A stretch of DNA of 37,467 nucleotides, taken from contig JAJONN010000002.1 of the NCBI GenBank assembly GCA_021323455.1, positions 1 through 37,467 on the forward strand. Direction: 5' to 3'. Under the pieces are notes generated by a model, which saw only the letters and a program-made list of their open reading frames with translations, searched no databases and was not told the DNA's origin. Below, piece by piece: positions 3,963 to 37,459 of the stretch. The number at the start of each line of letters is the position of its first letter. The stretch's first letter is position 1. Origin of the DNA: Alphaproteobacteria bacterium (GTDB lineage Bacteria > Pseudomonadota > Alphaproteobacteria > Paracaedibacterales > VGCI01). Both the position numbers and the translations under genes were made by a program.

Positions 3963-4011
3963 AAAAAATTTAATTTTTTTATATATTATTTTGAAAAATG
4001 GAGAATTGAAA

Positions 4012-5451
4012 ATGTTAAAATTTTATAAATTAACAAGCATTGGATTGTTAGGGTTGTTATCATCAGTTCCAAGCATCTTATGCGCTGACGATAACGAGGG
4101 GCCAGAGACGCCCCGCGCGGCTCATGTAATAGAAATACGAGGTCTTGATGATGATGCCGAGAATGTAAATAATAATAATTTTATTAAGGCTGAAGAAGGA
4201 TACGAAAAAACTAGAAAAATAATATTAGATGATATCGCTCGTGAACAAGAATTTTTAAGGCCTAAAAATCTTGAGGACCTTCGTATAGATAGCCTCCAAT
4301 ACCATATTAAAGAATTGTGTCGAACTTTGTTGGGAAGAGGTTGTGGTGAAGCTTTCTGGATTTCTTTTCCTAAGAGTAGTTGTTCTAATACTAATATGAG
4401 TTTTTATAAGAATGCCTTGAACTATCACGTCAAGTTACCCATGGATCTATCAGCCTACAATGCCGTTAAAAGGATATTTAATTTAGTGCCAAATATAACC
4501 AATAGGTTAAGTGAAATATCGCTTCATGAATTTAACTCCAGAAGGTATCCAAGATATAGTAAAAAAGCAACCGTGGGTGAAATAGCCACCTTCTCTTCAC
4601 TTCTTGTTGCGGTACAAACTTCATTGGAGAATGATGAGTCATTGGAGAATAATGATGAGGAAAAAGCCTGGAAAATTTTATGGTTGGCTCATCTGGCACC
4701 TGTTGAAGAACGGGAAGCGATAAAAGCTTATGGAAGAGCAATGGAGCAGAAAGAAATTGCTGCAAGCGCTCAACGGGCAAGAGGCAACCCTGAAGAAGTT
4801 CAAAAACACGCAGCCCAACAAGCCGCTAAGGTAGAAGCGGAACGGATTGCTGAGGAGGAGCAGCAAAAAGCTATTGAAGAAATTGCTCAAAGGGAACGAG
4901 ATAATAGAGCCGCTTTAGCAGCACGGACTACTCATGAGGACTGGTTACGAGATCAAGGGGTGTCATCAGAGGATATAGAACAAAGAGCATTAGAAACTGA
5001 ACAAACTTATAAGGCAGACACAAGGCAGGCTGCTAGGGAACGACAGGTGCAAGCAGAGAGATTAGCTAAAGAACAGGCTGTTGAGGAAAAACGAGCGAGA
5101 GCCATTGCTGAAGAAAGAGAAAAACAGCAAGCAGAAGCAACGGCTAAGGCGCAAGCAGAGGAATTAGCTAAAGAACAGGCTGTTGAGGAAAAACGAGCGA
5201 GAGCCATTGCTGAAGAAAGAGAAAAACAGCAAGCAGAGGCAACGGCTAAGGCGCAAGCAGAGAGATTAGCTAAAGAAGGAGTAAGAGCGACTGCTCAATC
5301 AGCTAACGCTTCTAAACCAAAAGTTCTCCCGCAAGTCAGAGAAACTCGAACACAAAGACTAAGGAATGCGGCGATTGCTGCCCGGGCCTCTAAGGCTGAT
5401 CGAGCCGCGAAGGTTAAACCTGTCGGTGATGCTAATAAGAAGGCTTCTTGA
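4012..5451 (+). CDS. Exported coiled-coil protein of unknown function
   Basis: I do not recognise a family. The ATG at 4012 is preferred over the in-frame TTG at 3991 because GGAG (4000-4003) lies 8 bases upstream and it starts a clean Sec signal peptide (hydrophobic core IGLLGLLSSVPSIL, likely cleavage after LCA). The 479-residue product has an N-terminal region of about 230 residues without obvious motif, then a long Ala/Glu/Lys/Arg/Gln-rich segment (about residues 245-435) expected to form a coiled coil. It includes a 34-residue unit repeated in tandem, and the protein ends in a basic tail. It is transcribed divergently from pheS and followed by a hairpin-bearing spacer. A periplasmic, surface or secreted protein is inferred from the signal peptide only. 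Confidence 0.8.
   Translation: MLKFYKLTSIGLLGLLSSVPSILCADDNEGPETPRAAHVIEIRGLDDDAENVNNNNFIKAEEGYEKTRKIILDDIAREQEFLRPKNLEDLRIDSLQYHIKELCRTLLGRGCGEAFWISFPKSSCSNTNMSFYKNALNYHVKLPMDLSAYNAVKRIFNLVPNITNRLSEISLHEFNSRRYPRYSKKATVGEIATFSSLLVAVQTSLENDESLENNDEEKAWKILWLAHLAPVEEREAIKAYGRAMEQKEIAASAQRARGNPEEVQKHAAQQAAKVEAERIAEEEQQKAIEEIAQRERDNRAALAARTTHEDWLRDQGVSSEDIEQRALETEQTYKADTRQAARERQVQAERLAKEQAVEEKRARAIAEEREKQQAEATAKAQAEELAKEQAVEEKRARAIAEEREKQQAEATAKAQAERLAKEGVRATAQSANASKPKVLPQVRETRTQRLRNAAIAARASKADRAAKVKPVGDANKKAS
5049..5277 (+). repeat. 102-bp in-frame tandem repeat (about 2.2 copies)
   Basis: Copies begin at 5049, 5151 and 5253 with the same GCAAGCAGAG start; the third is partial. The first two differ at only a few positions. 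The period of 102 bases is 34 codons, so copy-number change would lengthen or shorten the coiled coil without changing frame. Confidence 0.9.
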
Positions 5452-8756: not shown

Positions 8757-11700
8757 TTAAACCCAGGCTGCACTTAATAATTCAGCTTGTTCCAGTACCA
8801 AGGTAGCCGCATTTTCCGCTTTATCAGGCGGATAGCCGTAGTCGCGCAAGGTTTTTTTAACGATCAATCGCAGCTCAGAACGCACGCTGTCGCGCACGTA
8901 CCAGTCTACCCTTATATTCTTGCGAAGTTTTTCTGTAAGCTCATGAGCAATTATTTTAAGGGTTTCATCTCCCAACTCCTTAACAGAGGCTTCATTATCT
9001 GCCAGAGCATCATAAAAGGCGAGTTCATCTTCATTAAGCCCTACGGATTCACCACGTTCAGCAGCTTCTTTAAATTGCTTTGCCATTTTACATAATTCTT
9101 CCATGACCTGGGCCGTTTCAATGGCACGGTTATGGTATTTCCGGATTGTGTTGGTCAATAACTCTGAAAACTTCTTTTCTTGAATGATATTTGTTGAAAA
9201 ACGGGTTTTAATCTCGTCTTCAAGGAGACGTTCCAAGAGATCAACCGCTAAATTTTTTTCGGGTAGGTTTTGGATTTTACTGAGAAATGTTTCATCAAGA
9301 CAATCGATGTAAGGTTTATCTAATCCAACGGCATCAAAAATATCAACAACCTTATCAGATACAACAGTAGAATTTATAATTTTCTGGATGGCAAGCTCGC
9401 GTTCTTCATGCGTTTGCCTTTTTGCGCTTATGTCGCGTTTGGTCAGGATGATTTTTACGTTTTGCATAAAAGCGACTTCTTCACGTACAGCTTTTGCTTC
9501 CTCTAATGTACAACACAAACTAAAAGCTTTTGAAAGAGCAAGTGTCGTGTCTGCAAAGCGTTTTTTCCCCTCTTCCATTCCCAAAATATGGTTCGCTGTT
9601 TTTGCAAGTAAGGTGGGGCTGTTGATAAGAAAGCCGCTATAATCAAAGCCGTGGAGCATCCCCCGCAAGATATCGAGCTTTTCCGTTAGGACAGCGTAAG
9701 CTTCGCGTAGATCAATAATCGGTTTGCCGCGCCCATGGCTTGCTGTGTAATCTCTGAAAGCCTTTTCCAAGCCGTTGCCAATACCAATATAATCGACGAC
9801 CAAACCGCCTGGTTTATTATTAAATACACGGTTTACGCGCGAAATAGCCTGCATAAGGTTATGGTCTTTCATAGGCTTATCAATATAAAGCGTGTGGGCG
9901 CAAGGCACATCAAAACCTGTTAACCACATATCCCGTACAATCACCAAACGCAAATCATCTCCCGGATCCTTGAAACGGTTCTCCAAATCCTTCCGTGTTT
10001 GTTGAGAGTAAATATGGGGCCGAAGCAATGGCTTATCGCTTGCAGAACCCGTCATAACAACCTTAATTGCCCCCTTCGCTGGGTCTTCACTGTGCCAACC
10101 GGGGCGCAAGGCAATAATTTCATCATAAAGATGGACACAAATATCCCGGCTCATACCCACGATCATCCCTTTGCCATATTGCTCTTTGCAACGTTTTTCA
10201 AAGTGGGCAACCAGGTCATGAGCGACTTGTTTGAGGCGTGATTGAGCGCCGACAATTTTTTCTAAGGTGATCCATCCGGGTTTAAGTTGAGCTTGCTCGC
10301 TGTTCTCTTCGTCTTCTGACAATTCATCAATATCTTGATCAAGCGTAAGCATTTCCTTTTTATCAAGGGACAATTTGGCAAGACGGGGTTCGTAGTAGAT
10401 AGGGACTGTTGCGCCATCATCTTTTGCTTGTTGGACATCATAGATATGGATGTAGTCCCCAAACACAGCACGGGTATCTCGGTCTTCCATGGCAACAGGC
10501 GTGCCGGTGAAGGCAACGAACGTGGCATTTGGCAACGCATCCCGTAAATGTTGCGCATAGCCTACGCTATATTTTTCTTGCCCGGCTTTGCCTTTGAGTT
10601 TTGCGGCAAAGCCATATTGCGTGCGATGGGCTTCATCAGCAATCACAATGACATTGCGACGGTTAGACAAAACAGGAAAACTATCTTCATCTTCTCCGGG
10701 CATAAACTTTTGGATGGTCGTAAACACCATGCCTCCTGATGCCCGGTTATTTAATTGAGCGCGTAAATCTTGCCGCGTTTCAGCTTGCAGGGGTTGATCC
10801 CGTAGCAACTCGTGAGAAAGGGAAAATACGCCAAATAACTGGCCATCCAGATCATTGCGGTCTGTAATAACAACAATCGTTGGGTTTTCCAGGGCTGGTT
10901 CCCGCATCATGCGCGCTGCAAAACAGGTCATGGTAATGCTCTTGCCGCTTCCTTGCGTGTGCCATACGACACCACCCTTTTTATTCCCGTCAGGGCGTGA
11001 GGCGATGATTACTTTTTGAAGAGCTGCCCGCACCGCATGGAATTGATGGTATCCTGCGATTTTTTTAACGAGCTTGCGATCATCTTCAAACAATATGAAA
11101 AACTGCAAATACTCCAATAAATAGGAGGGGGTGAATAGCCCACGGGTCAGTGTTTCGAGCTCACGAAATTCTCCCAAGGGGTCAAGGGTGTTGCCATCAA
11201 TGGTGCGCCAGCGCATAAATCGTTCCTTGTTAGCGGAAAGGGACCCCATGCGGGCATCGACGCCATCAGAAATAACCAGGATTCCATTGTATTGGAAAAT
11301 ATCAGGTATCTGTTCCTTGTAAGTTTGAATCTGTTGAAAGGCTTTCCAAATATCAGCGTTTTCACCCGTGGGGTTTTTTAGCTCAATAAAGACCAAGGGG
11401 AGCCCATTAATAAACAAAACGACATCAGCACGGCGCGTATACTTTTCTCCTTCAACGGAAAATTGATTCACAGCCAGCCAGTCATTTTCTGAAGGATTTT
11501 CAAAATCAATGAGGCGCACAAAATCACCGCGTGTTTCGTCGTCCTTCTGGTAGTCGACTTTAACCCCATGAACCAAAAAATGATGAAAGCGGCGGTTAGC
11601 GGATAATAAGTCGGGAGTATTTAAGTCAACGACTAGGTGGAGGGCATCTTCACATGCTGCTGAAGGGATATCGGGATTCAACCGCTCGATGGCTTTACGC

Positions 11701-11843
11701 AATCGATCAACCAATAAAACCTCTCGGTAATTGCTGCGTTCAGGCGTTTTGCCATCGTAAGCAATGTGGGGGCCATAAATAGGCGTGTAGCCAATTTCAG
11801 ACAGCCAGCCCAGCATTTCTTGTTCGAGGTGATTTTCGGTCAC
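8757..11843 (-). CDS. hsdR: Type I restriction enzyme, R (endonuclease/translocase) subunit
   Basis: Motor and nuclease subunit of a type I restriction-modification complex; it translocates unmodified DNA using ATP and cleaves it away from the target. Its 1028 residues are typical. The N-terminal PD-(D/E)xK nuclease shows D140 (RRADVVLFINGLP) and E154/K156 (FIELKNP). The SF2 motor follows with Walker A HTQGSGKS (295-302), DEAH (403-406), TGTP and the motif VI-like QAISRVNRVF; a helical C-terminal region binds the HsdM/S core. The start is GTG at 11843, preceded by AAGGAAC. It lies 36 bases after the Cap15 stop, so the CBASS pair separates it from hsdM-hsdS. It appears intact. Confidence 0.96.
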   Translation of the reverse strand: MTENHLEQEMLGWLSEIGYTPIYGPHIAYDGKTPERSNYREVLLVDRLRKAIERLNPDIPSAACEDALHLVVDLNTPDLLSANRRFHHFLVHGVKVDYQKDDETRGDFVRLIDFENPSENDWLAVNQFSVEGEKYTRRADVVLFINGLPLVFIELKNPTGENADIWKAFQQIQTYKEQIPDIFQYNGILVISDGVDARMGSLSANKERFMRWRTIDGNTLDPLGEFRELETLTRGLFTPSYLLEYLQFFILFEDDRKLVKKIAGYHQFHAVRAALQKVIIASRPDGNKKGGVVWHTQGSGKSITMTCFAARMMREPALENPTIVVITDRNDLDGQLFGVFSLSHELLRDQPLQAETRQDLRAQLNNRASGGMVFTTIQKFMPGEDEDSFPVLSNRRNVIVIADEAHRTQYGFAAKLKGKAGQEKYSVGYAQHLRDALPNATFVAFTGTPVAMEDRDTRAVFGDYIHIYDVQQAKDDGATVPIYYEPRLAKLSLDKKEMLTLDQDIDELSEDEENSEQAQLKPGWITLEKIVGAQSRLKQVAHDLVAHFEKRCKEQYGKGMIVGMSRDICVHLYDEIIALRPGWHSEDPAKGAIKVVMTGSASDKPLLRPHIYSQQTRKDLENRFKDPGDDLRLVIVRDMWLTGFDVPCAHTLYIDKPMKDHNLMQAISRVNRVFNNKPGGLVVDYIGIGNGLEKAFRDYTASHGRGKPIIDLREAYAVLTEKLDILRGMLHGFDYSGFLINSPTLLAKTANHILGMEEGKKRFADTTLALSKAFSLCCTLEEAKAVREEVAFMQNVKIILTKRDISAKRQTHEERELAIQKIINSTVVSDKVVDIFDAVGLDKPYIDCLDETFLSKIQNLPEKNLAVDLLERLLEDEIKTRFSTNIIQEKKFSELLTNTIRKYHNRAIETAQVMEELCKMAKQFKEAAERGESVGLNEDELAFYDALADNEASVKELGDETLKIIAHELTEKLRKNIRVDWYVRDSVRSELRLIVKKTLRDYGYPPDKAENAATLVLEQAELLSAAWV

Positions 11844-11879
11844 TGTTGGTTCCTTATGTGCAGGTTTGCGTTAGAACAC

Positions 11880-12539
11880 TTAAGCTGTTGATTGGTCTTC
11901 CGAAAATATATCAAGGGCAGATTTATAATTTGTAGCATACTTATGTTTACGCTCAAGAAACTCCATATTTCCCTGAGACCAGCGGTCAGTCCAATAGTCT
12001 CCCTTGAGTTGATGTGCAGTGTTTACTTTACTAGCTTTTAGCTCTGCTGATCCCCGATGGCGTTGACTTCTATCTCTGAACGAACGATCTGGTGTGTTAT
12101 CATAATTATACGAAAGTTCCCAAGATCCAGTTTCTGTTGGAGATATATTAGCACTTAATGAATAGGATTCAGACTCTACACTAAAAATACAAATTCTTAT
12201 CGAAAGAAATGTTTGCTTAATTACTAAAAAAACTGGCTGAACAGTGTCTTTTCCATCTATTTTAGTATCGGGATTTATCCATCTATATTTGAGATCACCT
12301 TTCCAAGTACCATTCAAATTCGGGAGACCTGTTATAAATTCTGGCATCCATTTCCATAGCCATTTATTAAAAATGAACACCAAGCCAGTTGTAAGGGTTG
12401 TTGTATAGCTGGCTATCTTAAGTACGCTTTCGATTAAAGTATCAGCATGTATATAAGGACACAATGCGAGACTTGTTGAAATTATTGCAGCTAAGTGTAT
12501 GAGCCATTTTGCATTGTTCGGGTAAATTCCTTTTACCAA
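11880..12539 (-). CDS. cap15: Cap15-type CBASS effector (two-TM, beta-barrel; S-2TM-beta)
   Basis: Predicted membrane effector of a CBASS antiphage system: in this family a C-terminal beta-barrel senses the cyclic nucleotide and the protein then disrupts the inner membrane, aborting infection. Two N-terminal hydrophobic segments (WLIHLAAIISTSLALCPYI and SYTTTLTTGLVFIFNKWLW) are followed by a beta-rich domain: NLNGTWKGDLKY, FLVIKQTFLSIRI, SWELSYNYDNTP, HRGSAEL and LKGDYWTDRWSQGNMEF, a pattern typical of Cap15. I favour the TTG at 12539, which sits in TTGGTAA over the CD-NTase stop with AGGGAAGG about 10 bases upstream, giving 219 residues. The ATG at 12596 would give 238 residues, overlap its neighbour by 64 bases and put a Cys-rich extension before the first membrane helix. 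Adjacency to a CD-NTase supports the call. Confidence 0.82.
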   Translation of the reverse strand: MVKGIYPNNAKWLIHLAAIISTSLALCPYIHADTLIESVLKIASYTTTLTTGLVFIFNKWLWKWMPEFITGLPNLNGTWKGDLKYRWINPDTKIDGKDTVQPVFLVIKQTFLSIRICIFSVESESYSLSANISPTETGSWELSYNYDNTPDRSFRDRSQRHRGSAELKASKVNTAHQLKGDYWTDRWSQGNMEFLERKHKYATNYKSALDIFSEDQSTA

Positions 12540-13453
12540 AGTTGTAATTCCTTCCCTGCATAATAAATATAATTCTTTGCATCTTGTACAGACCATGGTT
12601 GTTTGGGTGAAAAAAGATACTTCATTCGATTGACTTCACACATTTTTTCGATTTCTTGGTTGTTTTGCACTCTGCTTGCTACATTGTGAAGAACAGCTTT
12701 GCAGCCATCAAGAAGAGTTGGAGTATTAAAACAAGCATCGGTTGCGTTCCATACAAGGCATTCAATAAGGAAAGAAGGCGTCTCAGCCACAACAGCATAA
12801 CCGGAATTTCTAATATTCTCTCTCAAAGATTTAAGAATGCGGACGACTTTTTTAAATCGAAAAGATGTTGCCTTATTTTTTTCAATACCAAACCTGTAGT
12901 GATGATCTGGCCAATTCGTAATAATTTTTCCATCTCCCGAAATAAATCTTGTTCCGATATTAACAGAGTTAGACGATAGAAATTGTTGGAAAACAAAACA
13001 TGGCACTGCATCTGCACTAACGCGTCCTGAATTTTTTAGTATTTTTAGAGACTTATTCCCAGTTTGCATTTCTTGGCCAAATTCTGCTTGTAACGAGCGG
13101 ATAACATCGGCCTTGAAAGATTCATACCTATATGTTGCAGGGAGAAGATTAAAAGCAGGTTCTGAAATCAATGATATTTGGGTGTGCTCATAGAAGAATG
13201 AACCTGTATAACAAATAGCTATATCAACATCGCTGTCTTGAGAAACATTAGTTCCATTTTTATAGGATCCTTGAGCAAATATGGAAATTTGCGCCAATTT
13301 ATCAGAATCAAATACTCTTGATTTTTCTATTGCATTTTTAATCATTCGCTCGGCTCGTTCGCAACGTGATATTTCGCTTTCCCCAATAGGTTCAGCATAT
13401 TTCTTACACATATCCTCAAGGGCAGATTGTGCCAATAAAGATAATGCGCTCAT
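12533..13453 (-). CDS. CBASS CD-NTase (cyclic oligonucleotide synthase)
   Basis: cGAS/DncV-like nucleotidyltransferase of a CBASS system, which makes a cyclic di- or oligonucleotide alarm signal on phage infection. The 306 residues show the NTase core: QGSYKNGTN (residues 61-69) with DSDVDI carrying metal-binding D75 and D77, and a third likely acidic residue D148 in SADAVPCF. A helical C-terminal OAS-like half follows. The ATG at 13453 overlaps the hsdS stop (ATGA) and has GGAGG just upstream; the 3' end overlaps the effector start. The pair is A+T-richer than hsdM or hsdR. No Cap2/Cap3 ubiquitin-like accessory genes are present, so this is the minimal type I layout. I cannot fix the CdnA-H clade or the nucleotide product by eye. 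Confidence 0.88.
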   Translation of the reverse strand: MSALSLLAQSALEDMCKKYAEPIGESEISRCERAERMIKNAIEKSRVFDSDKLAQISIFAQGSYKNGTNVSQDSDVDIAICYTGSFFYEHTQISLISEPAFNLLPATYRYESFKADVIRSLQAEFGQEMQTGNKSLKILKNSGRVSADAVPCFVFQQFLSSNSVNIGTRFISGDGKIITNWPDHHYRFGIEKNKATSFRFKKVVRILKSLRENIRNSGYAVVAETPSFLIECLVWNATDACFNTPTLLDGCKAVLHNVASRVQNNQEIEKMCEVNRMKYLFSPKQPWSVQDAKNYIYYAGKELQLW

Positions 13454-14727
13454 ACCACCACCTCCAAGGGTTTTTCGGCATCATGGATACGAATTTCACC
13501 TGAGATAAGTTTAGGAAGGAGTGAGTCTCTAATCTTAGAAAGTATACGTATTTGTTCCTCATTTATTTGAATACGCCCATCTAATGGCATAACCAATTTA
13601 TCGAACGCTTGCATTACAGGTGCCGGTGAGGCTATTATAGGTAATCCTTGAAAGTCTTTTTTGTTAATTGACCCGAAAACGGTGCCACCACTTTCAAAGA
13701 TTTTAAAATGAAAGCCAAGGTTTTGTATCGAGTACAGAGCGAAGCTTTTGTAACCATCAGAATGCCGGACTCCAGCGACTCCTCGACCCAGACAACATTT
13801 TTCTAATGCAACGTTTACATCACCAACTGGAGCGCGGACACTAACTAAGATATCATCTTTCTCAGCTAATCGGACAGGAGAGCAGCAGTAAATTCGTTTG
13901 GATGGAAAGCGGAAACCAAAGTCAGTTCTGCCTTGATAAAATGGTAAGCCCACACCGTTCTCATTATATGTTTCGCCAGGTGGAGACTGCCCCATTGTGA
14001 GGATAAATGATTGATCAACTGTTGAAAACTTCCACCCTTTTGGGATTAAGCCCATCTCAGCCTCTTCAAAGCTGTCAGGAAAAAGCGCTGCTGTTTCTGC
14101 ATTCATTCCTTCCGGTTGGCGGCCTTCTGATTTTGCCCGCACGGGGTCGAAATCGACAAACCAGGATTTGAATAGTGCTTGGGCTATGGTTTCGAGAGTG
14201 GTATTTATTTCCCGTAGATTTTCGATGCGGTCATCAAATAAAGACAGAAAATCAGCAATTGTTATTTGCGTTTTGAGATTAGGAACGGGAAAAACAAGGC
14301 TCCGTAAAACTTCTAAGTTAATATTCTCTTGAACACTTCCATAAGCTCTGCTTTTGATATCTCCTCGAAATGAACGGAACATATATTCAATAAAACGAAC
14401 ATCAGATTTGCCAGTATAGGGTAAAAAACCAACAACACTATCAGGGAAACACGCTGGAAAAGTTAACAACGCTGTTTCTGCGATATTAGCAGCAATCGTA
14501 ATACAAAGCGTTCCTTCAGGCCACAATTTGCTTTGCGCTAGTCCAGCTTCTGAATATGTTTGTCTATAGCTAATGATACGTCCGCCAGAAGCTGTTATGT
14601 CACCTGTTTGTATGAATGGGTAAGAACCGCCATACAAATGCGTTGCATCGCGTGGTCGGTGCTTTGATTTTCCTCTATCAAATGTTCCGAGGTCAGAGAG
14701 TTTTGTCTGTACCCACTCAGAACTCAT
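13450..14727 (-). CDS. hsdS: Type I restriction-modification specificity subunit
   Basis: Target-recognition subunit that directs HsdM and HsdR to a bipartite DNA sequence. The 425 residues have the usual two-fold layout: TRD1 (about 1-155), central conserved helical region (LSLFDDRIENLREINTTLE through QALFKSWFVDFDPVRAK), TRD2 (about 232-375) and a C-terminal conserved helix (MPLDGRIQINEEQIRIL then RDSLLPKLISGEI). The recognition sequence cannot be deduced. The ATG at 14727 lies within the end of hsdM (11-base overlap) behind GGGGAGG. Its stop overlaps the CD-NTase start, so the defense genes are translationally coupled. It appears complete, with no inverted hsdS copy nearby to suggest shuffling. 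Confidence 0.94.
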   Translation of the reverse strand: MSSEWVQTKLSDLGTFDRGKSKHRPRDATHLYGGSYPFIQTGDITASGGRIISYRQTYSEAGLAQSKLWPEGTLCITIAANIAETALLTFPACFPDSVVGFLPYTGKSDVRFIEYMFRSFRGDIKSRAYGSVQENINLEVLRSLVFPVPNLKTQITIADFLSLFDDRIENLREINTTLETIAQALFKSWFVDFDPVRAKSEGRQPEGMNAETAALFPDSFEEAEMGLIPKGWKFSTVDQSFILTMGQSPPGETYNENGVGLPFYQGRTDFGFRFPSKRIYCCSPVRLAEKDDILVSVRAPVGDVNVALEKCCLGRGVAGVRHSDGYKSFALYSIQNLGFHFKIFESGGTVFGSINKKDFQGLPIIASPAPVMQAFDKLVMPLDGRIQINEEQIRILSKIRDSLLPKLISGEIRIHDAEKPLEVVV

Positions 14728-16273
14728 ACCCCAGCCTCCCCAATTTCTCCCGAATCAGGGCATCCAGCTCTGCGCCTTTTGCCATCTGCTCACCAAGTTT
14801 TGTGGTGAGCTGCTGCATCTTTACAGCAAAAGCTTCCTCATCGTCCTCCACGGCTTCTGAGCCAACATATCGGCCAGGGGTGAGGACATGCCCATGTTGG
14901 GCAATTTCAGCCAAGGGGACACTGCGGCAAAACCCGGCAATATCCGCGTAGGCTCCCTTAGTTGCGTTATCTCCGCGCCAGGTGTGGACAGTATCGGCAA
15001 TTTTCTGGATATCGGCTTCTGAAAATTCAATCTGCACGCGGCTAACCATAGTCCCCAGCTTACGGGCATCAATAAAAAGAACTTCCCCTTTGCGCGTCCT
15101 TTTTTGTTTGGCAAGGAACCACAGACAAGCGGGAATTTGCGTATTGAAAAATAACTGGCCGGGTAAAGCGACCATACATTCCACCACGTCGGCTTCGATC
15201 ATGTTTTTACGAATATCCCCTTCGCTGTTTTGGCTGGAGCTCATGGAGCCGTTCGCTAAAACAATGCCTGCCCGTCCATGGGAGTTAAGATGATATAAGA
15301 TATGCTGCAACCACGCGTAGTTCGCATTCCCTTGGGGAGGGGTTCCATAGACCCAGCGTGGATCCTTTTCAAGGCTGCCGTGCCACCAATCAGAGATATT
15401 GAAAGGGGGATTGGCTAACACGAAATCAGCCCGTAACTCAGGATGCTGGTTCTTTGTGAAGGTATCAGCCGGTTCTTTGCCAAGGTTAAAGTCCATACCG
15501 CGGATGGCAAGGTTCATGGCTGCCAAACGCCATGTGGTTGGGTTGGATTCTTGTCCGTAAATAGAGACATCCCCCAATTTTCCACCATGGGCTTCGATAA
15601 ATTTTTCAGACTGCACAAACATACCACTTGACCCACAACAAGGGTCATAGACTTTACCCTGATGAGGCGCTAAAACGGCAACCAATGTTCCCACAATGCT
15701 CACAGGAGTATAAAATTGGCCGCCTTTCTTCCCTTCAGCGCTTGCAAATTGGCCGAGGAAATATTCGTAAACCTGCCCCAATAAATCTTTTGCATGTTGA
15801 CCGGAAACGCCAAAGCCGATAGAGGAAATCAAGTCAACCAACTCCCCTAACTTGCCGTCTGGTAGCTGTACGCGGGCATACCGTTTATCAAGGATGCCTT
15901 TGAGTTTGGGATTTTCTGTCTCGATCATAGCTAAAGCATGATCAATAAGCTTTCCAATATCAGCCTGTTTTGCGCGTGCCCGTAGGCTTTCCCAACGCGC
16001 GGCTTCTGGAACCCAAAAGACGTTTTTTGCCGTATAATAATCGCGGTCTTCTAACGCGTGGGCGAGGGTTTCGGCATTCGCATTGGGGATATAATCCTCA
16101 TCATTTGGATCAGCAAAGCAGCGGGTCAGTTCATCACGGCGTATTTGAAAGGCGTCTGAAATATACTTCAAGAAGATCAAGCCAAGGACAATGTGTTTGT
16201 ATTCCGCAGCATCCATGTTGGCGCGAAGCTTGTCGGCTGATGCCCAGAGGGCCTTCTTAATATCTGCTCGCAT
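14717..16273 (-). CDS. hsdM: Type I restriction-modification DNA methyltransferase (N6-adenine)
   Basis: Modification subunit that with HsdS methylates adenine at the recognition site, using S-adenosylmethionine and protecting host DNA. The 518 residues carry an N-terminal helical HsdM_N domain (about 5-150), the SAM-binding motif I VYDPCCGSSGMF (208-219) and catalytic NPPF (288-291) in VLANPPFNISDWW. It is first in the defense operon. The 144-base gap to the upstream same-strand hemF holds a TATAAT at about 16292-16297 and GAAGGAC before the ATG at 16273, so it likely has its own promoter. It appears intact. Confidence 0.96.
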   Translation of the reverse strand: MRADIKKALWASADKLRANMDAAEYKHIVLGLIFLKYISDAFQIRRDELTRCFADPNDEDYIPNANAETLAHALEDRDYYTAKNVFWVPEAARWESLRARAKQADIGKLIDHALAMIETENPKLKGILDKRYARVQLPDGKLGELVDLISSIGFGVSGQHAKDLLGQVYEYFLGQFASAEGKKGGQFYTPVSIVGTLVAVLAPHQGKVYDPCCGSSGMFVQSEKFIEAHGGKLGDVSIYGQESNPTTWRLAAMNLAIRGMDFNLGKEPADTFTKNQHPELRADFVLANPPFNISDWWHGSLEKDPRWVYGTPPQGNANYAWLQHILYHLNSHGRAGIVLANGSMSSSQNSEGDIRKNMIEADVVECMVALPGQLFFNTQIPACLWFLAKQKRTRKGEVLFIDARKLGTMVSRVQIEFSEADIQKIADTVHTWRGDNATKGAYADIAGFCRSVPLAEIAQHGHVLTPGRYVGSEAVEDDEEAFAVKMQQLTTKLGEQMAKGAELDALIREKLGRLGYEF

Positions 16274-28311: not shown

Positions 28312-30306
28312 TCATCGCTCAATAATATCCGCGTCAATCAGCACGTTACGTAGGGCCATAAATATAGATCCATGAGGGTTTTCGGTATGTGAATGATGGT
28401 AAGTGCGTGCATAGAATCTATCGGAAAGAAAGGATTTAATAGCAAAGTATCCTTTGTTATTTCTTTCGGCTGTTTCTGCGAAAAAACCATACTCTTTTAG
28501 TTTATTAAATAAGCCGATCACTTTTCGCGTATTTTTTTCCGCTAATAAAGCTTGGATAAAGGAATGGAATTCTGCTGTTCTAAGGGTTTCTGGAAGCATG
28601 GAAACGTTTTTCTCATTTTTTTTCATAGCTACTGTGGTTTCGGACGCTTCCTCGAGGGAAGACGTACGTCGCGTCTTCTTAACCTTTACTGGTACTACAG
28701 GAGATTCAGACTGGACAATTGATGCAGCAGCTTGGCTTAATGCAACGGGCTCTATGATCGGAGAGGCAGGGGCCGCCGCAGCGTCACTGGGTCTGTTTTC
28801 GTTCTTTGCTTCCATTGATGCAGCGATATTCTGTTGGTTTAATTCTTCCCTTGCCGGGGGTAACGCCTGAGTTGATGCTGGTTGCTTGGTCTGTTCCTGT
28901 TCCTGTTCCTGTTCCTGTTCCTGTTCCTGTTCCTGTTCCTGTTCCTGTTCCTGTTCCTGTTCCTGTTCCTGTGTCTGTTCCTGTTCCTGTGTCTGTTCCC
29001 GTTTCTGTTTCTGTTTCTGTTTCTGTCTTTTTTGTCGCTTACGTTGAGACCGGACATCAGCCGCAGCAGCGGCAGCAGCACGTGTCGCCTCTTGTGCCTT
29101 AGCCATTTCCATTCTGTCTTGGTCTTGGAGATAGGTAGTTATGATGTGTTTATACTGAAGCGGTAGCGTTCTGTAGAGCTTGCTTTCGCCTTTAAATTTT
29201 TTCAACCATTCAATTGTATCTTTTTCGATTTTTCTGATTTTTTCTGATACAGCTTCATAAGCTTGTATAGCTTTTAGGACGAGAAGGCCAGATTCATTAT
29301 ATAAAAAACAGTCTTTCATATCATGGGGTAAAACTTGTTGAGATAATGCTCCTACTTCTTCTATAAGGGTAGCGCGAATTTTACACTCCTCGCTATGGCA
29401 TTCAGATAAGGCGTCCTGAATCGTTCTTAATTGGCCTTTAGAAAATTTTTTTATATCGTTGCTGACTGGATCTCTGCTGCTTGGGGGATCTCGGTCGGTT
29501 GGAGCCAACCAGAAAAACGGGCAGGTCTTGTCGAATGTACGTACCAATTTTTGAGTTATTGATTCGTAATAGCTAAAAAGTGCCTGATTATCAACTTGGT
29601 GATATATTATACCTGGAATAAATAAAGTTTTAATATACTTATATTCTTCTAGAGTATCATATGGTTTTGTATCTTTTGCGCATATTTTTAAAGAAATTAG
29701 TTTGTAAAAACTATCTTCCCCCAAATGTTCAGGGATCTGGCGGGGGTAAAAATTGTTCATAACGTCTTTAAAGTGTCTTTCTTCGTATGATAGAAAAGAC
29801 CATAAACTGTTTTTGTGCCGATCTCTTTCTTCTTGTGTATCTGCGATTATAGTGCGTTGAGCAAGTTCTTTTATTGACATGTAGGTCTCTAGCAAAGAAG
29901 AAATATAACGACAATACGAAGTTATTTTTTCCTCATTAGTGCTGTCTTCTTGGGTTATATCGTGAGGTATATCTGAAGGCGTATCATTAAAATGACGTAA
30001 AAAGCGTTCTATTTTATCTTCCATAGGAATATTGGAAGAATTAAGCCATTCAAGTAATTCTTTTCTCTGTCTAATACGGTCTTGTAAGATATTCCAGCCA
30101 ATTTCGACGCTATCCTTTTCCGTTGCAGAAAATAAAGGGGATGTTTTGAGGGTAGAAACTATGGCTTCATCTGAATGTGCAAAAAGGGGAGTTTCAGAAG
30201 CATCCGCAGGATTCTTATATTCCCCTATCTCCATGGAAAAGGTTGCTGATGGTGTAAGGGTAAGAGCCAATACCAGAATTGCTGTTGTTTTTAAGTATAA
30301 TTTCAT
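28312..30306 (-). CDS. Exported protein with Gln/Glu repeat tract, function unknown
   Basis: The ATG at 30306 starts a clear signal peptide (MKLYLKTTAILVLALTLTPS, cleavage likely near TFS), giving 664 residues; the longer frame upstream lacks one. Residues about 25-400 are helical and charged, without a family I recognise. An Ala run, a Lys/Arg/Gln stretch and a (Gln-Glu)n tract (about 423-472) follow, then a Pro/Ala/Ser linker. The last about 88 residues look like a separate globular domain: VIGLFNKLKEYGFF, then YHHSHTENPHGSIFMALRNV. That resembles the HicA toxin-type fold (Lxx.GF, H followed by G-x(3)-ALR), but this is weak pattern matching. It is convergent with putA, 26 bases apart. A secreted effector or surface protein is conceivable, not shown. 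Confidence 0.7.
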   Translation of the reverse strand: MKLYLKTTAILVLALTLTPSATFSMEIGEYKNPADASETPLFAHSDEAIVSTLKTSPLFSATEKDSVEIGWNILQDRIRQRKELLEWLNSSNIPMEDKIERFLRHFNDTPSDIPHDITQEDSTNEEKITSYCRYISSLLETYMSIKELAQRTIIADTQEERDRHKNSLWSFLSYEERHFKDVMNNFYPRQIPEHLGEDSFYKLISLKICAKDTKPYDTLEEYKYIKTLFIPGIIYHQVDNQALFSYYESITQKLVRTFDKTCPFFWLAPTDRDPPSSRDPVSNDIKKFSKGQLRTIQDALSECHSEECKIRATLIEEVGALSQQVLPHDMKDCFLYNESGLLVLKAIQAYEAVSEKIRKIEKDTIEWLKKFKGESKLYRTLPLQYKHIITTYLQDQDRMEMAKAQEATRAAAAAAADVRSQRKRQKRQKQKQKQKREQTQEQEQTQEQEQEQEQEQEQEQEQEQEQEQEQEQTKQPASTQALPPAREELNQQNIAASMEAKNENRPSDAAAAPASPIIEPVALSQAAASIVQSESPVVPVKVKKTRRTSSLEEASETTVAMKKNEKNVSMLPETLRTAEFHSFIQALLAEKNTRKVIGLFNKLKEYGFFAETAERNNKGYFAIKSFLSDRFYARTYHHSHTENPHGSIFMALRNVLIDADIIER
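28891..29026 (-). repeat. Hexanucleotide tandem repeat encoding Gln-Glu
   Basis: On the plus strand CTGTTC repeats without interruption from 28891 to about 28971 (13.5 units), then continues with substitutions to about 29026. Read on the minus strand it encodes alternating Gln and Glu. Gain or loss of units keeps the frame, so length variation between strains is expected. Confidence 0.95.
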
Positions 30307-30733
30307 TTCCTTGTAACCTTTTCTTAAAAGATTTTTTCTCATTTCTTCGCAAAAGATAATAATATATTTTGGATAAAAAATTTCTAAAATGTCAATCATC
30401 TATAGATCTAGGGAGATTGAATCCTGCTCAAAGGATCAGTTCAAAAATATACTTGATGATGTTATTAATTTCAATGGCTTTGGAGAAAAAAATAAATGAA
30501 ATTTTTTATGAATTCGGTTTTTTTTGTCAATTTTCCCCTCTAATTTTCTGCAAGCTTCGGCCACACTATTTTTATGCGCGCAGTATTATGGTGTTGGCAG
30601 ATACAGATCATATGGCATTGAACGAGCACCATAGAACACAACAGAAAAGAGACTTTATGGTATTGTTCTTCCTAATGGGGCATGACCTTTCAGTGAGCAC
30701 CATTTGATCAAAATGCTCATCTAACAAGAGAGG
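30307..30733. other. Intergenic region upstream of the exported Gln/Glu-repeat gene
   Basis: AT-rich sequence (30307-30540) probably containing the promoter of the leftward exported gene, then sequence downstream of the GT9 gene. Short imperfect hairpins such as GAGCACCATTTGATC... (from 30696) are present but lack T-runs. I see no credible gene; the longest open frame across it has no homology I recognise. Confidence 0.5.
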
Positions 30734-33378: not shown

Positions 33379-33996
33379 TTAACCAATCTTTACTTTGCGT
33401 GGTGTTGTTCTTTTTTCCGATGGAGTCTCTTTTGCAATGCGAATTTTCAAAACACCATTATCTAGAGATGTATTAATGGCTTTACTTGCGCTTAAGTCAA
33501 AAGGAACAGAAATAGCCCGTGTTATATTTCCTTTGGCAATTTCAGAATAAGCTAAGGTTTTTGCTTCCTGAGAATCCTTGCGAATTCCATTAATAAAAAT
33601 GGTATTCCCAGATAAGGATACATCCAGGTCTTCTACATTAATACCCGGAACGTCAAAAGATAACACAAACTCATGGTTGGTCTCAGCTAATTCAGCTGCG
33701 AAAGATTGGCTTAAGGCAGGGCTCCCACCGTGCCAACCAGAAGGAACACCACTGTAATAAGGCGTAAAGGCGGCAGGGGTCTCAGGCGTGTTCTGAGAAG
33801 TATTGTTTTCCCATGATGCACTTGGATTCCAAGTCGCCGTTGGGCTCCATGGGGAACCTGGATACCAAGCTGCAGCTGAACTCCATGGGGAACCTGGGTT
33901 CCAGCCTGTTGGTTGGCTCCAGCTTGCATTCGGATTCAAGCTTTGTGGTCCCCAACCTGTTGGTTGTGCTTGAAGGGGGATGAATGTACCTGTCAT
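33379..33996 (-). CDS. Small heat shock protein (Hsp20) with Trp-rich N-terminal extension
   Basis: ATP-independent chaperone that holds unfolding proteins. The alpha-crystallin domain spans about residues 101-190: ELAETNHEFVLSFDVPGIN, LSGNTIFINGIRK and the closing LDNGVLKIRIAK, all typical of Hsp20. The first about 100 residues are unusual: short Trp/Pro/Gly/Ser motifs (PTGWNPGSPWSS, AAAWYPGSPWSP, TATWNPSASW) instead of a normal sHsp arm. Total 205 residues, against about 140-160 usually. GAAAGGAC precedes the ATG at 33996. The neighbouring upstream gene has the same start and motifs without the crystallin domain, so the two are tandem duplicates. Confidence 0.9.
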   Translation of the reverse strand: MTGTFIPLQAQPTGWGPQSLNPNASWSQPTGWNPGSPWSSAAAWYPGSPWSPTATWNPSASWENNTSQNTPETPAAFTPYYSGVPSGWHGGSPALSQSFAAELAETNHEFVLSFDVPGINVEDLDVSLSGNTIFINGIRKDSQEAKTLAYSEIAKGNITRAISVPFDLSASKAINTSLDNGVLKIRIAKETPSEKRTTPRKVKIG

Positions 33997-34031: not shown

Positions 34032-34093
34032 TAGACTTGCTGCATAAGCCTTCTTGACCCTTTTGGGACATTCTTGCCTATGCAGCAGGTCTA
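34032..34093. repeat. 62-bp inverted repeat upstream of hsp20
   Basis: TAGACTTGCTGCATA (34032-34046) and TATGCAGCAGGTCTA (34079-34093) form a 15-bp stem with one mismatch. The ends resemble terminal repeats of small insertion sequences, so it may be a MITE; otherwise an mRNA leader hairpin of hsp20. Confidence 0.75.
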
Positions 34094-34105: not shown

Positions 34106-34164
34106 TTATGTCACTGTTTGCGCTTACCATTAAGTTAGAACGCAGAACAATTCTTAATAAACGG
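34106..34164 (-). promoter_or_regulatory. Duplicated upstream segment of hsp20
   Basis: This segment resembles 34755-34821 upstream of the paralogous repeat gene: both share CACTGTTT, CTTACCATT and TTCTTAATAAA...CGG (plus-strand reading) in the same order. Conservation ahead of two paralogues suggests a shared promoter or heat-shock control region. No clear sigma32 boxes were found. It also encodes the last codons and stop of the repeat gene. Confidence 0.45.
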
Positions 34165-34681
34165 ATAACGCAATTGAGTTCCAGCCTGTTGGTTGGCTCC
34201 AGCTTGCGCCTGGGTTCCATGCTGCTGCTTGATTCCAGCCTGTACCTGGATGCCATGCTGCTGCTTGATTCCAGCTTGTGCTTGGGTTCCATGCTGCTGC
34301 TTGGTTCCAACCTGCGCCTGGGTTCCAACCTGCGCCTGGGTTCCATGCTGCTGCTTGGTTCCAACCTGCGCTTGGGTTCCATGCTGCTGCTTGGTTCCAA
34401 CCTGCGCTTGGATTCCATGCTGCTGCTTGGTTCCAGCTTGTGCTTGGATTCCATGCTGCTGCTTGGTTCCAACCTGCGCCTGGGTTCCATGCTGCTGCTT
34501 GGTTCCAGCTTGTGCTTGGGTTCCATGCTGCTGCTTGGTTCCAGCTTGTGCTTGGATTCCATGCTGCTGCTTGGTTCCAACCTGCGCCTGGGTTCCAGGC
34601 TGCAATTTGGTTTGAGCCGTTGGATCCCCAACCTTTATTATGAGCATAAAATGGGACGAATGTTCCTACTTGAGTTGTCAT
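34154..34681 (-). CDS. Trp-rich 12-residue repeat protein, Hsp20 paralogue lacking the crystallin domain
   Basis: The 175-residue product opens like the adjacent Hsp20 (TGTFIPLQAQPTGWG versus VGTFVPFYAHNKGWG) and has GGAAAGGA before its ATG, which identifies this frame among six open ones. Residues 26-163 are eleven copies of a 12-residue unit, AAAWNPxxxWNQ, where xxx is GAG, STS or SAG; one copy has a 6-residue insert and one has WHP. The repeat closes with ASWSQPTGWN, as in the Hsp20, then stops after SIALSVY instead of entering a crystallin domain. It has no signal peptide and no Cys. It is either a domain-loss remnant or a stand-alone repeat protein; function unknown. Confidence 0.7.
   Translation of the reverse strand: MTTQVGTFVPFYAHNKGWGSNGSNQIAAWNPGAGWNQAAAWNPSTSWNQAAAWNPSTSWNQAAAWNPGAGWNQAAAWNPSTSWNQAAAWNPSAGWNQAAAWNPSAGWNQAAAWNPGAGWNPGAGWNQAAAWNPSTSWNQAAAWHPGTGWNQAAAWNPGASWSQPTGWNSIALSVY
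34193..34606 (-). repeat. 36-bp tandem repeat array (11 copies)
   Basis: Repeated core GCTGCTGCTTGGTTCCA (plus strand) every 36 bases, with one extra 18-base half unit near 34318-34335. The array has no stop codon in any of the six frames. Confidence 0.95.
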
Positions 34682-34861
34682 TGTCTTTTCCTTTCCAAAA
34701 AATTTTCAAAGTTCTTTCTTGAGCTTTGACGTTAAGTAAAACAGGCCCATACGTTATGAAGCACTGTTTACCCTTACCATTCTTGATGTTAAAGGATATT
34801 TCTTAATAAATTACTAAACGGAAGAAAATATTGAGTTGTGTATTTTAAGATCTTCTTCTAG
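34682..34861 (-). promoter_or_regulatory. Upstream region of the Trp-rich repeat gene
   Basis: It holds the ribosome-binding GGAAAGGA just above 34681 and the 34755-34821 block shared with the hsp20 upstream region. Clear -35 and -10 boxes are not evident. Confidence 0.35.
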
Positions 34862-35022: not shown

Positions 35023-35649
35023 TTATTCAGGCAAAGCTTTGCTTTCCTCTGTCTTATCTTCTTCTGTTTTACGCTCTACAGGAGACCCTTTTACAGGATG
35101 GGCATCAAGATATTGAATATTATTTTTTGTGTAAGTGAGACGTTTTTCCAAGGTAGCTTCATTTTGCTCATCGCTTTTGATTTTTAAGGTGACCACCACT
35201 TTATTTGTTGGCCCCGTGATCGTTTGACCAAGATAAGCCTCTTGAAATTTGCGGGGCGCCCTTTCTTCTCTCTCAAAAAGTTCTGCAATCTCTTTAGGAT
35301 AATCAAATTCTCGATAAATCTTTAACATCCCTGTTGTTGCCGTTTCGTCCATAATGTCTTGTGGGGCTTCTAGGACCAAGCTAATAATGTCGTGGATGAG
35401 GGAAACATCATCGCTATAAAAATAGGGTTGGTTCTTTTCGTGGGCAGACAAGCTATGCTCCTGCATAACTTTGCCCTGAATCATTTTTTGAAAAGAATCA
35501 TTTACCCCATCATTTTTAATATTTTCAAGGAGCTTCTTGACAGTTAAAAGGACCGATTTGTCCTCTGCTTCAGCGCTTAAGGAGACTTGGCTATAAAAAA
35601 TCAAGCCCATCATAATGAAAATTATGCTTATCGACCTGCTAAACGCCAT
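35023..35649 (-). CDS. Exported protein of unknown function, 208 residues
   Basis: Signal peptide at the N-terminus (SIIFIMMGLIFYSQVSLSA, cleavage likely after LSA). The mature part of about 184 residues is hydrophilic and mostly helical to residue 130 (ERE-rich segment AELFEREERAPRKFQEAY). A predicted beta segment follows (VVVTLKIKSDEQ), then an acidic, Lys/Glu-rich tail (KTEEDKTEESKALPE). No Cys and no family recognised. It lies on the same strand as the larger exported gene upstream, separated by 178 bases and a terminator, so it is probably a separate transcription unit. A periplasmic or secreted location is inferred. Confidence 0.7.
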   Translation of the reverse strand: MAFSRSISIIFIMMGLIFYSQVSLSAEAEDKSVLLTVKKLLENIKNDGVNDSFQKMIQGKVMQEHSLSAHEKNQPYFYSDDVSLIHDIISLVLEAPQDIMDETATTGMLKIYREFDYPKEIAELFEREERAPRKFQEAYLGQTITGPTNKVVVTLKIKSDEQNEATLEKRLTYTKNNIQYLDAHPVKGSPVERKTEEDKTEESKALPE

Positions 35650-35827: not shown

Positions 35828-37459
35828 TTACTGGTTATATTCAGCCAAACGAGGATGGTCTTTACCATAGAGTATCTTAAAGTGATTCATCCAATCTGTT
35901 AATTCTTTCCTTAATTCTAGTTTAAGATCATTAAGGCGCTTTTCCTCCACTGGATCGACTGGCGCGGCTGCGGGAGCTGGCGCTACGCCTGCGGGCGCGG
36001 CTGCCGCTTGCCCGTTCCTAAGTTGTGTTATCTTAGCTTCATTCTCCACATATTTGCCCCGTATTTTATCTATTTGTGCAAGGCTAACTTGTTCTTGGCG
36101 AGCCAGCAGGTCTGCGCTAGTTGCTGCCACTTTCTGCAACCCTTGTTCCAAAGCAAGCCTTTTTTCCTCAGTCTCAGAAAATCTTTTCTCATGTTGAGCT
36201 ATAAGCTCTTTGAATTGATCGGCTTCTCTTCTGGTTGCGGCTTCTTGCGCTTGTCTCTCATTTTCCAGCTGTTTCTCTTTAGCAAGTTCCTCAGCTCTGT
36301 GTTTCGCCTCTGTCTCTGCTCTCTTTCTTGCTTCTACTTCTGAATATCGGTAACGTATTGTGTACAGATTTTTTGTATGTGGATTCTCGCTGTAGTCCCT
36401 GATAATACTTACAAGGAATTCGCTGGCTTCCACCGGTTTGTTGATAGCCTCGCAAACAACCGAGAATATTCGGCCATCCGATATATCAACCTCTTCTCCG
36501 GTCGTGCCATGCCAACAATTTTCATGCTGAATTTCTTCCAAGTCGCTTGGTTCTTGCCTCAAAAGGCTATAAACCCCGGCAGGTGCTCCCGGCCAATTCT
36601 GGCGTTGTTCTGCTGGAAATTCTGCATGCGTGACTTGCTTTGTGACTTCCGATTGGGCCAACCATTTCGAGGAGTAAAACTTCTGGGTTGTATCTCTTTT
36701 AAAAACATGTTCCCCGGTTATCGGGTGAGGAAATGTTTGGGAATGGGGCTCGAGGCAATAAGAAGAGCCATTAAGATCAAATGCTCCTTCCAAGGTTACT
36801 GTTGTTGTGTTCACCGTGCCACGTTTAGAAGAATAAGTAACTTGGGGATCGCATCCCGTGGGTTGAGCGGTATTTTCAATCGCATAAGTACCGCTGAAGT
36901 GATAGCCCCCTGGCGGAGAAGCGGAAACTAACAATTCCGCTAAAGAAGGGGCTGATTTGTCAATATCTACATTAAAATTATAAGCGATCGCGATTCGATT
37001 TGTAAAATTCGCTTGGCTCAACCAAGACGTAAATTGATCATAACTTTCAAAAGCGTCTGGTTTGGGTGGCAAGTTACAAGTTGCGGATGAAGGGGCACAA
37101 TCAACTTTAACTGTTATCTCAACAGGAGCATGGTGCGTGACAGAAGAGGAAAAGTCGGTAAGAAAAAGCCGGACAGGAATGTCTTGTTGGTGCGGTTCTC
37201 CAACAAGCTTCATTTTCAAGCCCTTTAAGCACTCTAAGTCTACTCTCATTTTGAGGAGAACATTGTTACCCGTTCCCAGAACGGATTCCAGTATTGTATC
37301 ACAGTCCCCTTTGATCAGTTGCATGGCTTCTGTTGAAGCTTTTCGCTTGGCTACTGGGGGTGGTAGGGGGTTGTCCTCCATGCCGTGAGTTGCTGAAGGC
37401 GCAGAAAATGCGATAACAACAAGAGCTGAGGATACAAGAAGTTTAAGGTCGTTTCTCAT
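35828..37459 (-). CDS. Exported coiled-coil protein of unknown function, 543 residues
   Basis: The N-terminus is a signal peptide (LKLLVSSALVVIAFSAPSATHG). Residues about 40-350 form a Cys-containing, beta-rich region (for example VDLECLKGLKMKLVG, APSSATCNLPP, SSYCLEPHSQTF, ENCWHG), suggesting disulfides in the periplasm or outside the cell. Residues about 375-480 are a charged coiled coil (ARKRAETEAKHRAEELAKEK), then an Ala/Pro linker and a short helical C-terminus. The overall plan, exported head plus coiled coil, resembles the gene at 4012-5451, though I see no sequence match in the head. The ATG lies 8 bases from the window end, so its ribosome binding site is not visible and an upstream start cannot be excluded. 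Confidence 0.75.
   Translation of the reverse strand: MRNDLKLLVSSALVVIAFSAPSATHGMEDNPLPPPVAKRKASTEAMQLIKGDCDTILESVLGTGNNVLLKMRVDLECLKGLKMKLVGEPHQQDIPVRLFLTDFSSSVTHHAPVEITVKVDCAPSSATCNLPPKPDAFESYDQFTSWLSQANFTNRIAIAYNFNVDIDKSAPSLAELLVSASPPGGYHFSGTYAIENTAQPTGCDPQVTYSSKRGTVNTTTVTLEGAFDLNGSSYCLEPHSQTFPHPITGEHVFKRDTTQKFYSSKWLAQSEVTKQVTHAEFPAEQRQNWPGAPAGVYSLLRQEPSDLEEIQHENCWHGTTGEEVDISDGRIFSVVCEAINKPVEASEFLVSIIRDYSENPHTKNLYTIRYRYSEVEARKRAETEAKHRAEELAKEKQLENERQAQEAATRREADQFKELIAQHEKRFSETEEKRLALEQGLQKVAATSADLLARQEQVSLAQIDKIRGKYVENEAKITQLRNGQAAAAPAGVAPAPAAAPVDPVEEKRLNDLKLELRKELTDWMNHFKILYGKDHPRLAEYNQ

Follow-up and report, generated by a model that had tools for sequence, protein, structure and literature searches.

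Identification of the array ORF

The question raised by this locus is whether a tandem repeat that encodes tryptophan at every sixth residue, in DNA open in many reading frames, represents a gene, and if so from what source it was derived. The repeat was located in the window (the whole 37,467-nt stretch of DNA that was analyzed) within an ORF of 175 aa on the minus strand (34154-34681), which begins with ATG and is preceded by the ribosome binding site GAAAGGA (34689-34695, minus), a motif identical to that before all three hsp20 orthologues described below. A conserved N-terminus (MTTQVGTFVPFYAHNKGWGSNGSNQ, 34607-34681, minus) is followed by 24 tandem hexapeptides of the form xxxWN(P/Q) (residues 26-169, 34175-34606, minus), with a few deviations at the N and P/Q positions. 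Tryptophan is found at residues 18, 29, 35, 41 and onward to 167, a gap of 11 and then of 6 throughout, and is unbroken from W29 to W167 over the 24 hexads. The arm so encoded is nearly uncharged and Trp/Asn-rich; the 25 Trp in the 175 residues of the ORF amount to 14%, against 1.25% in the other coding sequences of the window, which bears out the exceptional Trp load claimed in the preliminary description.

That description also counted eleven 36-bp units. A strong 36-bp period is present (TRF score 464) and nine units fit AAW(N/H)PxxxWNQ exactly, but the units are pairs of hexads (AAAWNP plus xxxWNQ), one of them is in fact 54 bp or three hexads long, and the natural repeat unit is 18 bp or 6 residues (xxxWNP, xxxWNQ). 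The genome is a draft of 104 contigs, in which the array length may be collapsed. No Pfam or NCBIfam domain was matched by the ORF, and the alpha-crystallin domain of PF00011 was not found in it.

Six-frame openness of the array

The interval 34193-34606 had been described as free of stops in all six frames. This was confirmed for 34267-34612 (~345 bp), the longest six-frame-open stretch in the window (the next are of 166 and 96 bp), but not for the low end, where two stops fall in one plus-strand frame. Since 36 bp is a whole number of codons, a repeat will be open in six frames if its unit is, and repeated random 36-mers were open in 20% of cases at the composition of the array and in 1.6% at that of the window. 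Random recodings of both peptides, with codons drawn according to window usage, were six-frame open in 19% and 46%. With 19-46% expected for such repeats, the openness is a by-product of periodicity and composition, and it was rejected as a signal. It is hardly credible, therefore, that one of the other open frames, which reach 121-204 aa on both strands, encodes the real product: they are accounted for by periodicity, and the homologous start and N-terminus, the ribosome binding site and the Trp register matched with hsp20 occur solely in minus 34154-34681, the frame preferred from the outset.

Homology to the neighboring hsp20 gene

One link had been overlooked: in the adjacent gene downstream, the same N-terminus and Trp register precede an Hsp20 domain within one protein. 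This hsp20 gene (33379-33996, minus) encodes 205 aa, of which residues 104-204 (33385-33687, minus) form an alpha-crystallin domain (PF00011, E 1.2e-17) that places the protein in the Hsp20/small heat-shock protein (sHSP) family. Its N-terminal arm holds seven Trp hexads (W26-W62, every 6 residues; 33805-33930, minus), and its Trp residues (15, 26, 32, 38, 44, 50, 56 and 62) follow the same 11-then-6 register as those of the array ORF. The N-terminus M(TTQV)GTF[IV]P..GWG is common to both proteins. When residues 1-25 of the array protein were aligned to Hsp20 of the same genome and to its orthologues in two congeneric species (G003 and G001), none of 5000 shuffles scored as well in any of the three comparisons, and a profile built from these three Hsp20s recovered the array ORF over positions 1-75 of the model (E 7.7e-10). 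Register, profile, shuffles and the shared upstream element described next indicate common ancestry of the array ORF with an sHSP N-terminal arm. The repeat, which had been left without a family, was thus resolved as such an arm copied without the alpha-crystallin domain.

Similarity extends upstream of both genes. An element TTTATTAAGAA..AATGGTAAGGGTAAACAGTG lies before the array ORF (34762-34810, minus) and a second copy before hsp20 (34112-34161, minus); the pattern common to the two, TTTATTAAGAA...AATGGTAAG(C/G)G(C/T)AAACAGTG, is found at only these two places in the genome and resembles sequence 5' of the hsp20 genes of G001 and G003. The final array hexads (..GASWSQPTGWN) correspond to hexads 1-2 of hsp20 and are identical to them over ~30 bp. 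Sequence comparison showed that after ..PTGWN the tail of the array runs into the duplicated upstream region (34162-34174, minus), the element copy itself beginning at 34161, soon after the last hexads. Since the two copies separated, many substitutions have accumulated and an in-frame loss of 9 bp has occurred in hsp20. The TTQV/STQL segment is kept in the array ORF and in the orthologues and is lost from the local Hsp20, so the array was not copied very recently from hsp20 in its present form.

Origin of the array ORF

From these comparisons the array ORF is most probably an N-terminal-domain-only tandem paralogue of the neighboring hsp20, a reading to which we assign a probability of roughly 0.8. 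Briefly, the upstream element, ribosome binding site and N-terminal arm of hsp20 would have been duplicated in tandem as one segment. The duplication would have ended inside the arm (at ..QPTGWN), so that the new copy has no alpha-crystallin domain and its frame extends a few codons past the arm, into the duplicated upstream region, where it meets a stop. A single partial duplication of this kind accounts for the observed order of element, arm, element, arm and alpha-crystallin domain. Slippage or unequal exchange between the 18/36-bp hexad repeats may then have expanded the array to 24 Trp hexads, compared with 7 in hsp20; alternatively, the arm of hsp20 may have contracted. Duplication of the whole gene followed by loss of the alpha-crystallin domain would look nearly the same. 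The hsp20 gene may be either parent or sister, and the copied control region would be the presumed source of transcription of the array ORF. At this locus an sHSP arm appears to have been detached from its alpha-crystallin core and multiplied into a repeat, with the likely parent still adjoining.

Distribution among related genomes

One such Hsp20 was found in each of G001 and G003, in which the N-terminus is conserved and the arm is N/Q-rich and carries almost no charge; the C-terminal half of the local Hsp20 is 71% identical to the G003 orthologue and 67% identical to the G001 orthologue. The gene at 35023-35649 also has a homologue near hsp20 in G001 (49% identity), which supports orthology of the locus. 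A significant 11-residue repeat was detected in the arm of the G001 protein (0 of 2000 shuffles) and no significant period in that of G003. No recognizable hsp20 orthologue was found in G002 (90% complete), and no copy restricted to the N-terminal domain was found in G001, G003 or any other genome searched, so that the array ORF is confined to this species among those genomes.

A search for WNP/WNQ repeat proteins in related genomes, proposed earlier as a check, yielded no true relative of the array among the genomes searched in the order (42), the class (385) and the phylum (398), the matches being low-complexity, antisense or unrelated; the same was true of the matches listed for viral contigs and phages. 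A match in a Curvibacter phage was rejected as antisense to an annotated gene, and a WNPWTP match (G468) as lying on the strand opposite the repetitive tail of a longer ORF. The PDB sequence search gave no match to the array, and a literature search for Trp-rich repeats in sHSPs gave no relevant report. Tryptophan at every sixth residue of a long frame was also observed at the C-terminus of a subtilase-like protease from another genome of the same class (L059), whose WDSGS(M/L) hexads (~8 units) are unrelated in sequence to the array and represent an independent case.

In G003, the hsp20 orthologue lies (L047, G003:C19, 401-11035) near genes for a class I PHA synthase, an acetoacetyl-CoA reductase, an esterase-like protein and a patatin-like protein, and the PHA synthase is extended N-terminally by a stretch in which Trp-containing segments recur (EWxxMWxxFxxETQ-like). 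A link between Hsp20 and PHA granules, considered on account of phaC near the G003 hsp20, is unsupported, because phaC is present in 4/4 genomes, including G002, where no hsp20 orthologue was found.

Possible function of the amplified arm

If expressed, the arm would be cytoplasmic, and its most likely function would be to co-assemble with full-length Hsp20 by contacts of like with like between their Trp hexads, altering the size of oligomers or condensates; this is a tentative reading, held at somewhat less than even odds and drawn by analogy. Assembly of sHSPs is governed by their N-terminal regions, which in human HSPB1 include a Trp-rich sub-region that affects the oligomer balance (PMC6791718), and sHSP duplicates can specialize as partners, as in IbpA/IbpB (PMC10708888); by these analogies a paralogue that consists of the arm alone, and whose Trp hexads match those of Hsp20, would be expected to co-assemble with it. 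The array arm resembles sHSP N-terminal regions such as the HSPB1 sub-region (PMC6791718) in being low in charge and rich in aromatic residues, but it differs from the arms of the family in lacking an alpha-crystallin domain and in consisting of 24 regular Trp hexads rather than a short irregular segment. Similarly, the two genes are hsp20 duplicates that could act together, as IbpA/IbpB of Enterobacterales do (PMC10708888), but IbpA and IbpB are both complete sHSPs that form heterodimers, whereas the array copy has lost the pairing domain and so does not form a pair of that type. A more specific proposal is unlikely: that the arm-only protein is a partner of Hsp20 whose 24 hexads act as a Trp sticker and tune its assembly or condensation, in a lineage seemingly unable to make Trp.

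The partial duplicate and its expansion may instead be functionless by-products of slippage, a neutral remnant with the same origin as that proposed above. No clear sign of purifying selection was seen in the array: synonymous changes between units numbered 6 of 12 (p 0.054), or 4 of 8 when the edge unit was left out (p 0.11), zero stops among the 12 inter-unit changes would be expected 27% of the time, and the sparing of TGG sites gave p 0.07. A remnant would also be consistent with the restriction to one species, with an array tail derived from intergenic DNA and with the ease with which stop-free repeats arise at this composition. On the other side, the start codon, ribosome binding site, upstream element and N-terminal motif have been kept despite clear divergence from hsp20, no frameshift is present, and Trp is unbroken across the 24 hexads. 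Because selection is not demonstrable, a neutral remnant has nearly an even chance of being correct, much the same as a working gene. If expressed, the arm-only paralogue is a natural experiment on whether sHSP assembly can be driven or modulated by the arm by itself; if unexpressed, it is a clear example of repeat slippage making gene-like long ORFs open in many frames.

Predicted structure

The repeat had been suggested to be fibrous, aggregating or ligand-binding. Aggregation stays plausible because sHSP arms drive assembly; binding of a ligand found no support. That the W-N-P/W-N-Q repeat is an independent fibrous or amyloid-like element, either a beta-solenoid fiber or a surface ligand binder, is improbable. 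The best AF2 model made with no alignment did consist of 11 evenly spaced beta strands (pLDDT ~75-83 over most of the array, 68 overall), and its best Foldseek match, non-significant, was the functional amyloid FapC. However, only one of five AF2 models was confident, no PDB match was obtained by Foldseek at E<0.001, and a translation of the array DNA in the wrong frame gave the same 11-strand pattern at pLDDT 50. For repeat sequences, AF2 has a known tendency to predict solenoids that are unrealistic (PMC11795689). Given this and the wrong-frame control, the model was uninformative, the beta-solenoid fold was rejected as evidence and the fibrous suggestion was left without usable support. The N-terminus, moreover, is that of the neighboring Hsp20, and by reading no obvious secretion signal was seen.

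Tryptophan supply and the intergenic hairpin

A trpB gene was not found in the four genomes of the genus (G000-G003), in a search of the Trp pathway that covered trpB alone and in which the control was positive in 14/14 reference genomes. Trp is therefore probably imported and the organism probably auxotrophic for it, in which case a protein with 25 Trp would be costly. A strong hairpin (34032-34093, minus) was identified by folding energy between the stop of the array ORF and the start of hsp20 (MFE -37.3 kcal/mol for the 121-nt region, z -5.3, 18-bp arms) and may be a terminator, an attenuator or an insertion. It is single-copy in the genome and absent upstream of the hsp20 orthologues, and the Rfam search returned no match above the gathering score and no ROSE thermometer.

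Trp import, the hairpin and the position of the array ORF, on the same strand as hsp20 and 157 bp upstream of it, would suit a Trp-responsive leader, in which translation of the 25 Trp codons and the hairpin couple hsp20 expression to the Trp supply. Known trp leader peptides are far shorter than the array ORF, however, and hsp20 carries its own copy of the upstream element, the hairpin has no clear U-run and the arrangement is absent from relatives, so that a leader function is very improbable.

Other features of the window

Three large proteins (3991-5451, 28312-30399 and 35828-37459) have signal-peptide-like starts and low-complexity coiled or QE-rich repeats, with no significant match to a Pfam family. 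On the minus strand (8757-16273), a type I restriction-modification operon contains, between its hsdS and hsdR genes, a CBASS pair that consists of a CD-NTase (12533-13453) and a Cap15-type effector with two TM segments (11880-12596).
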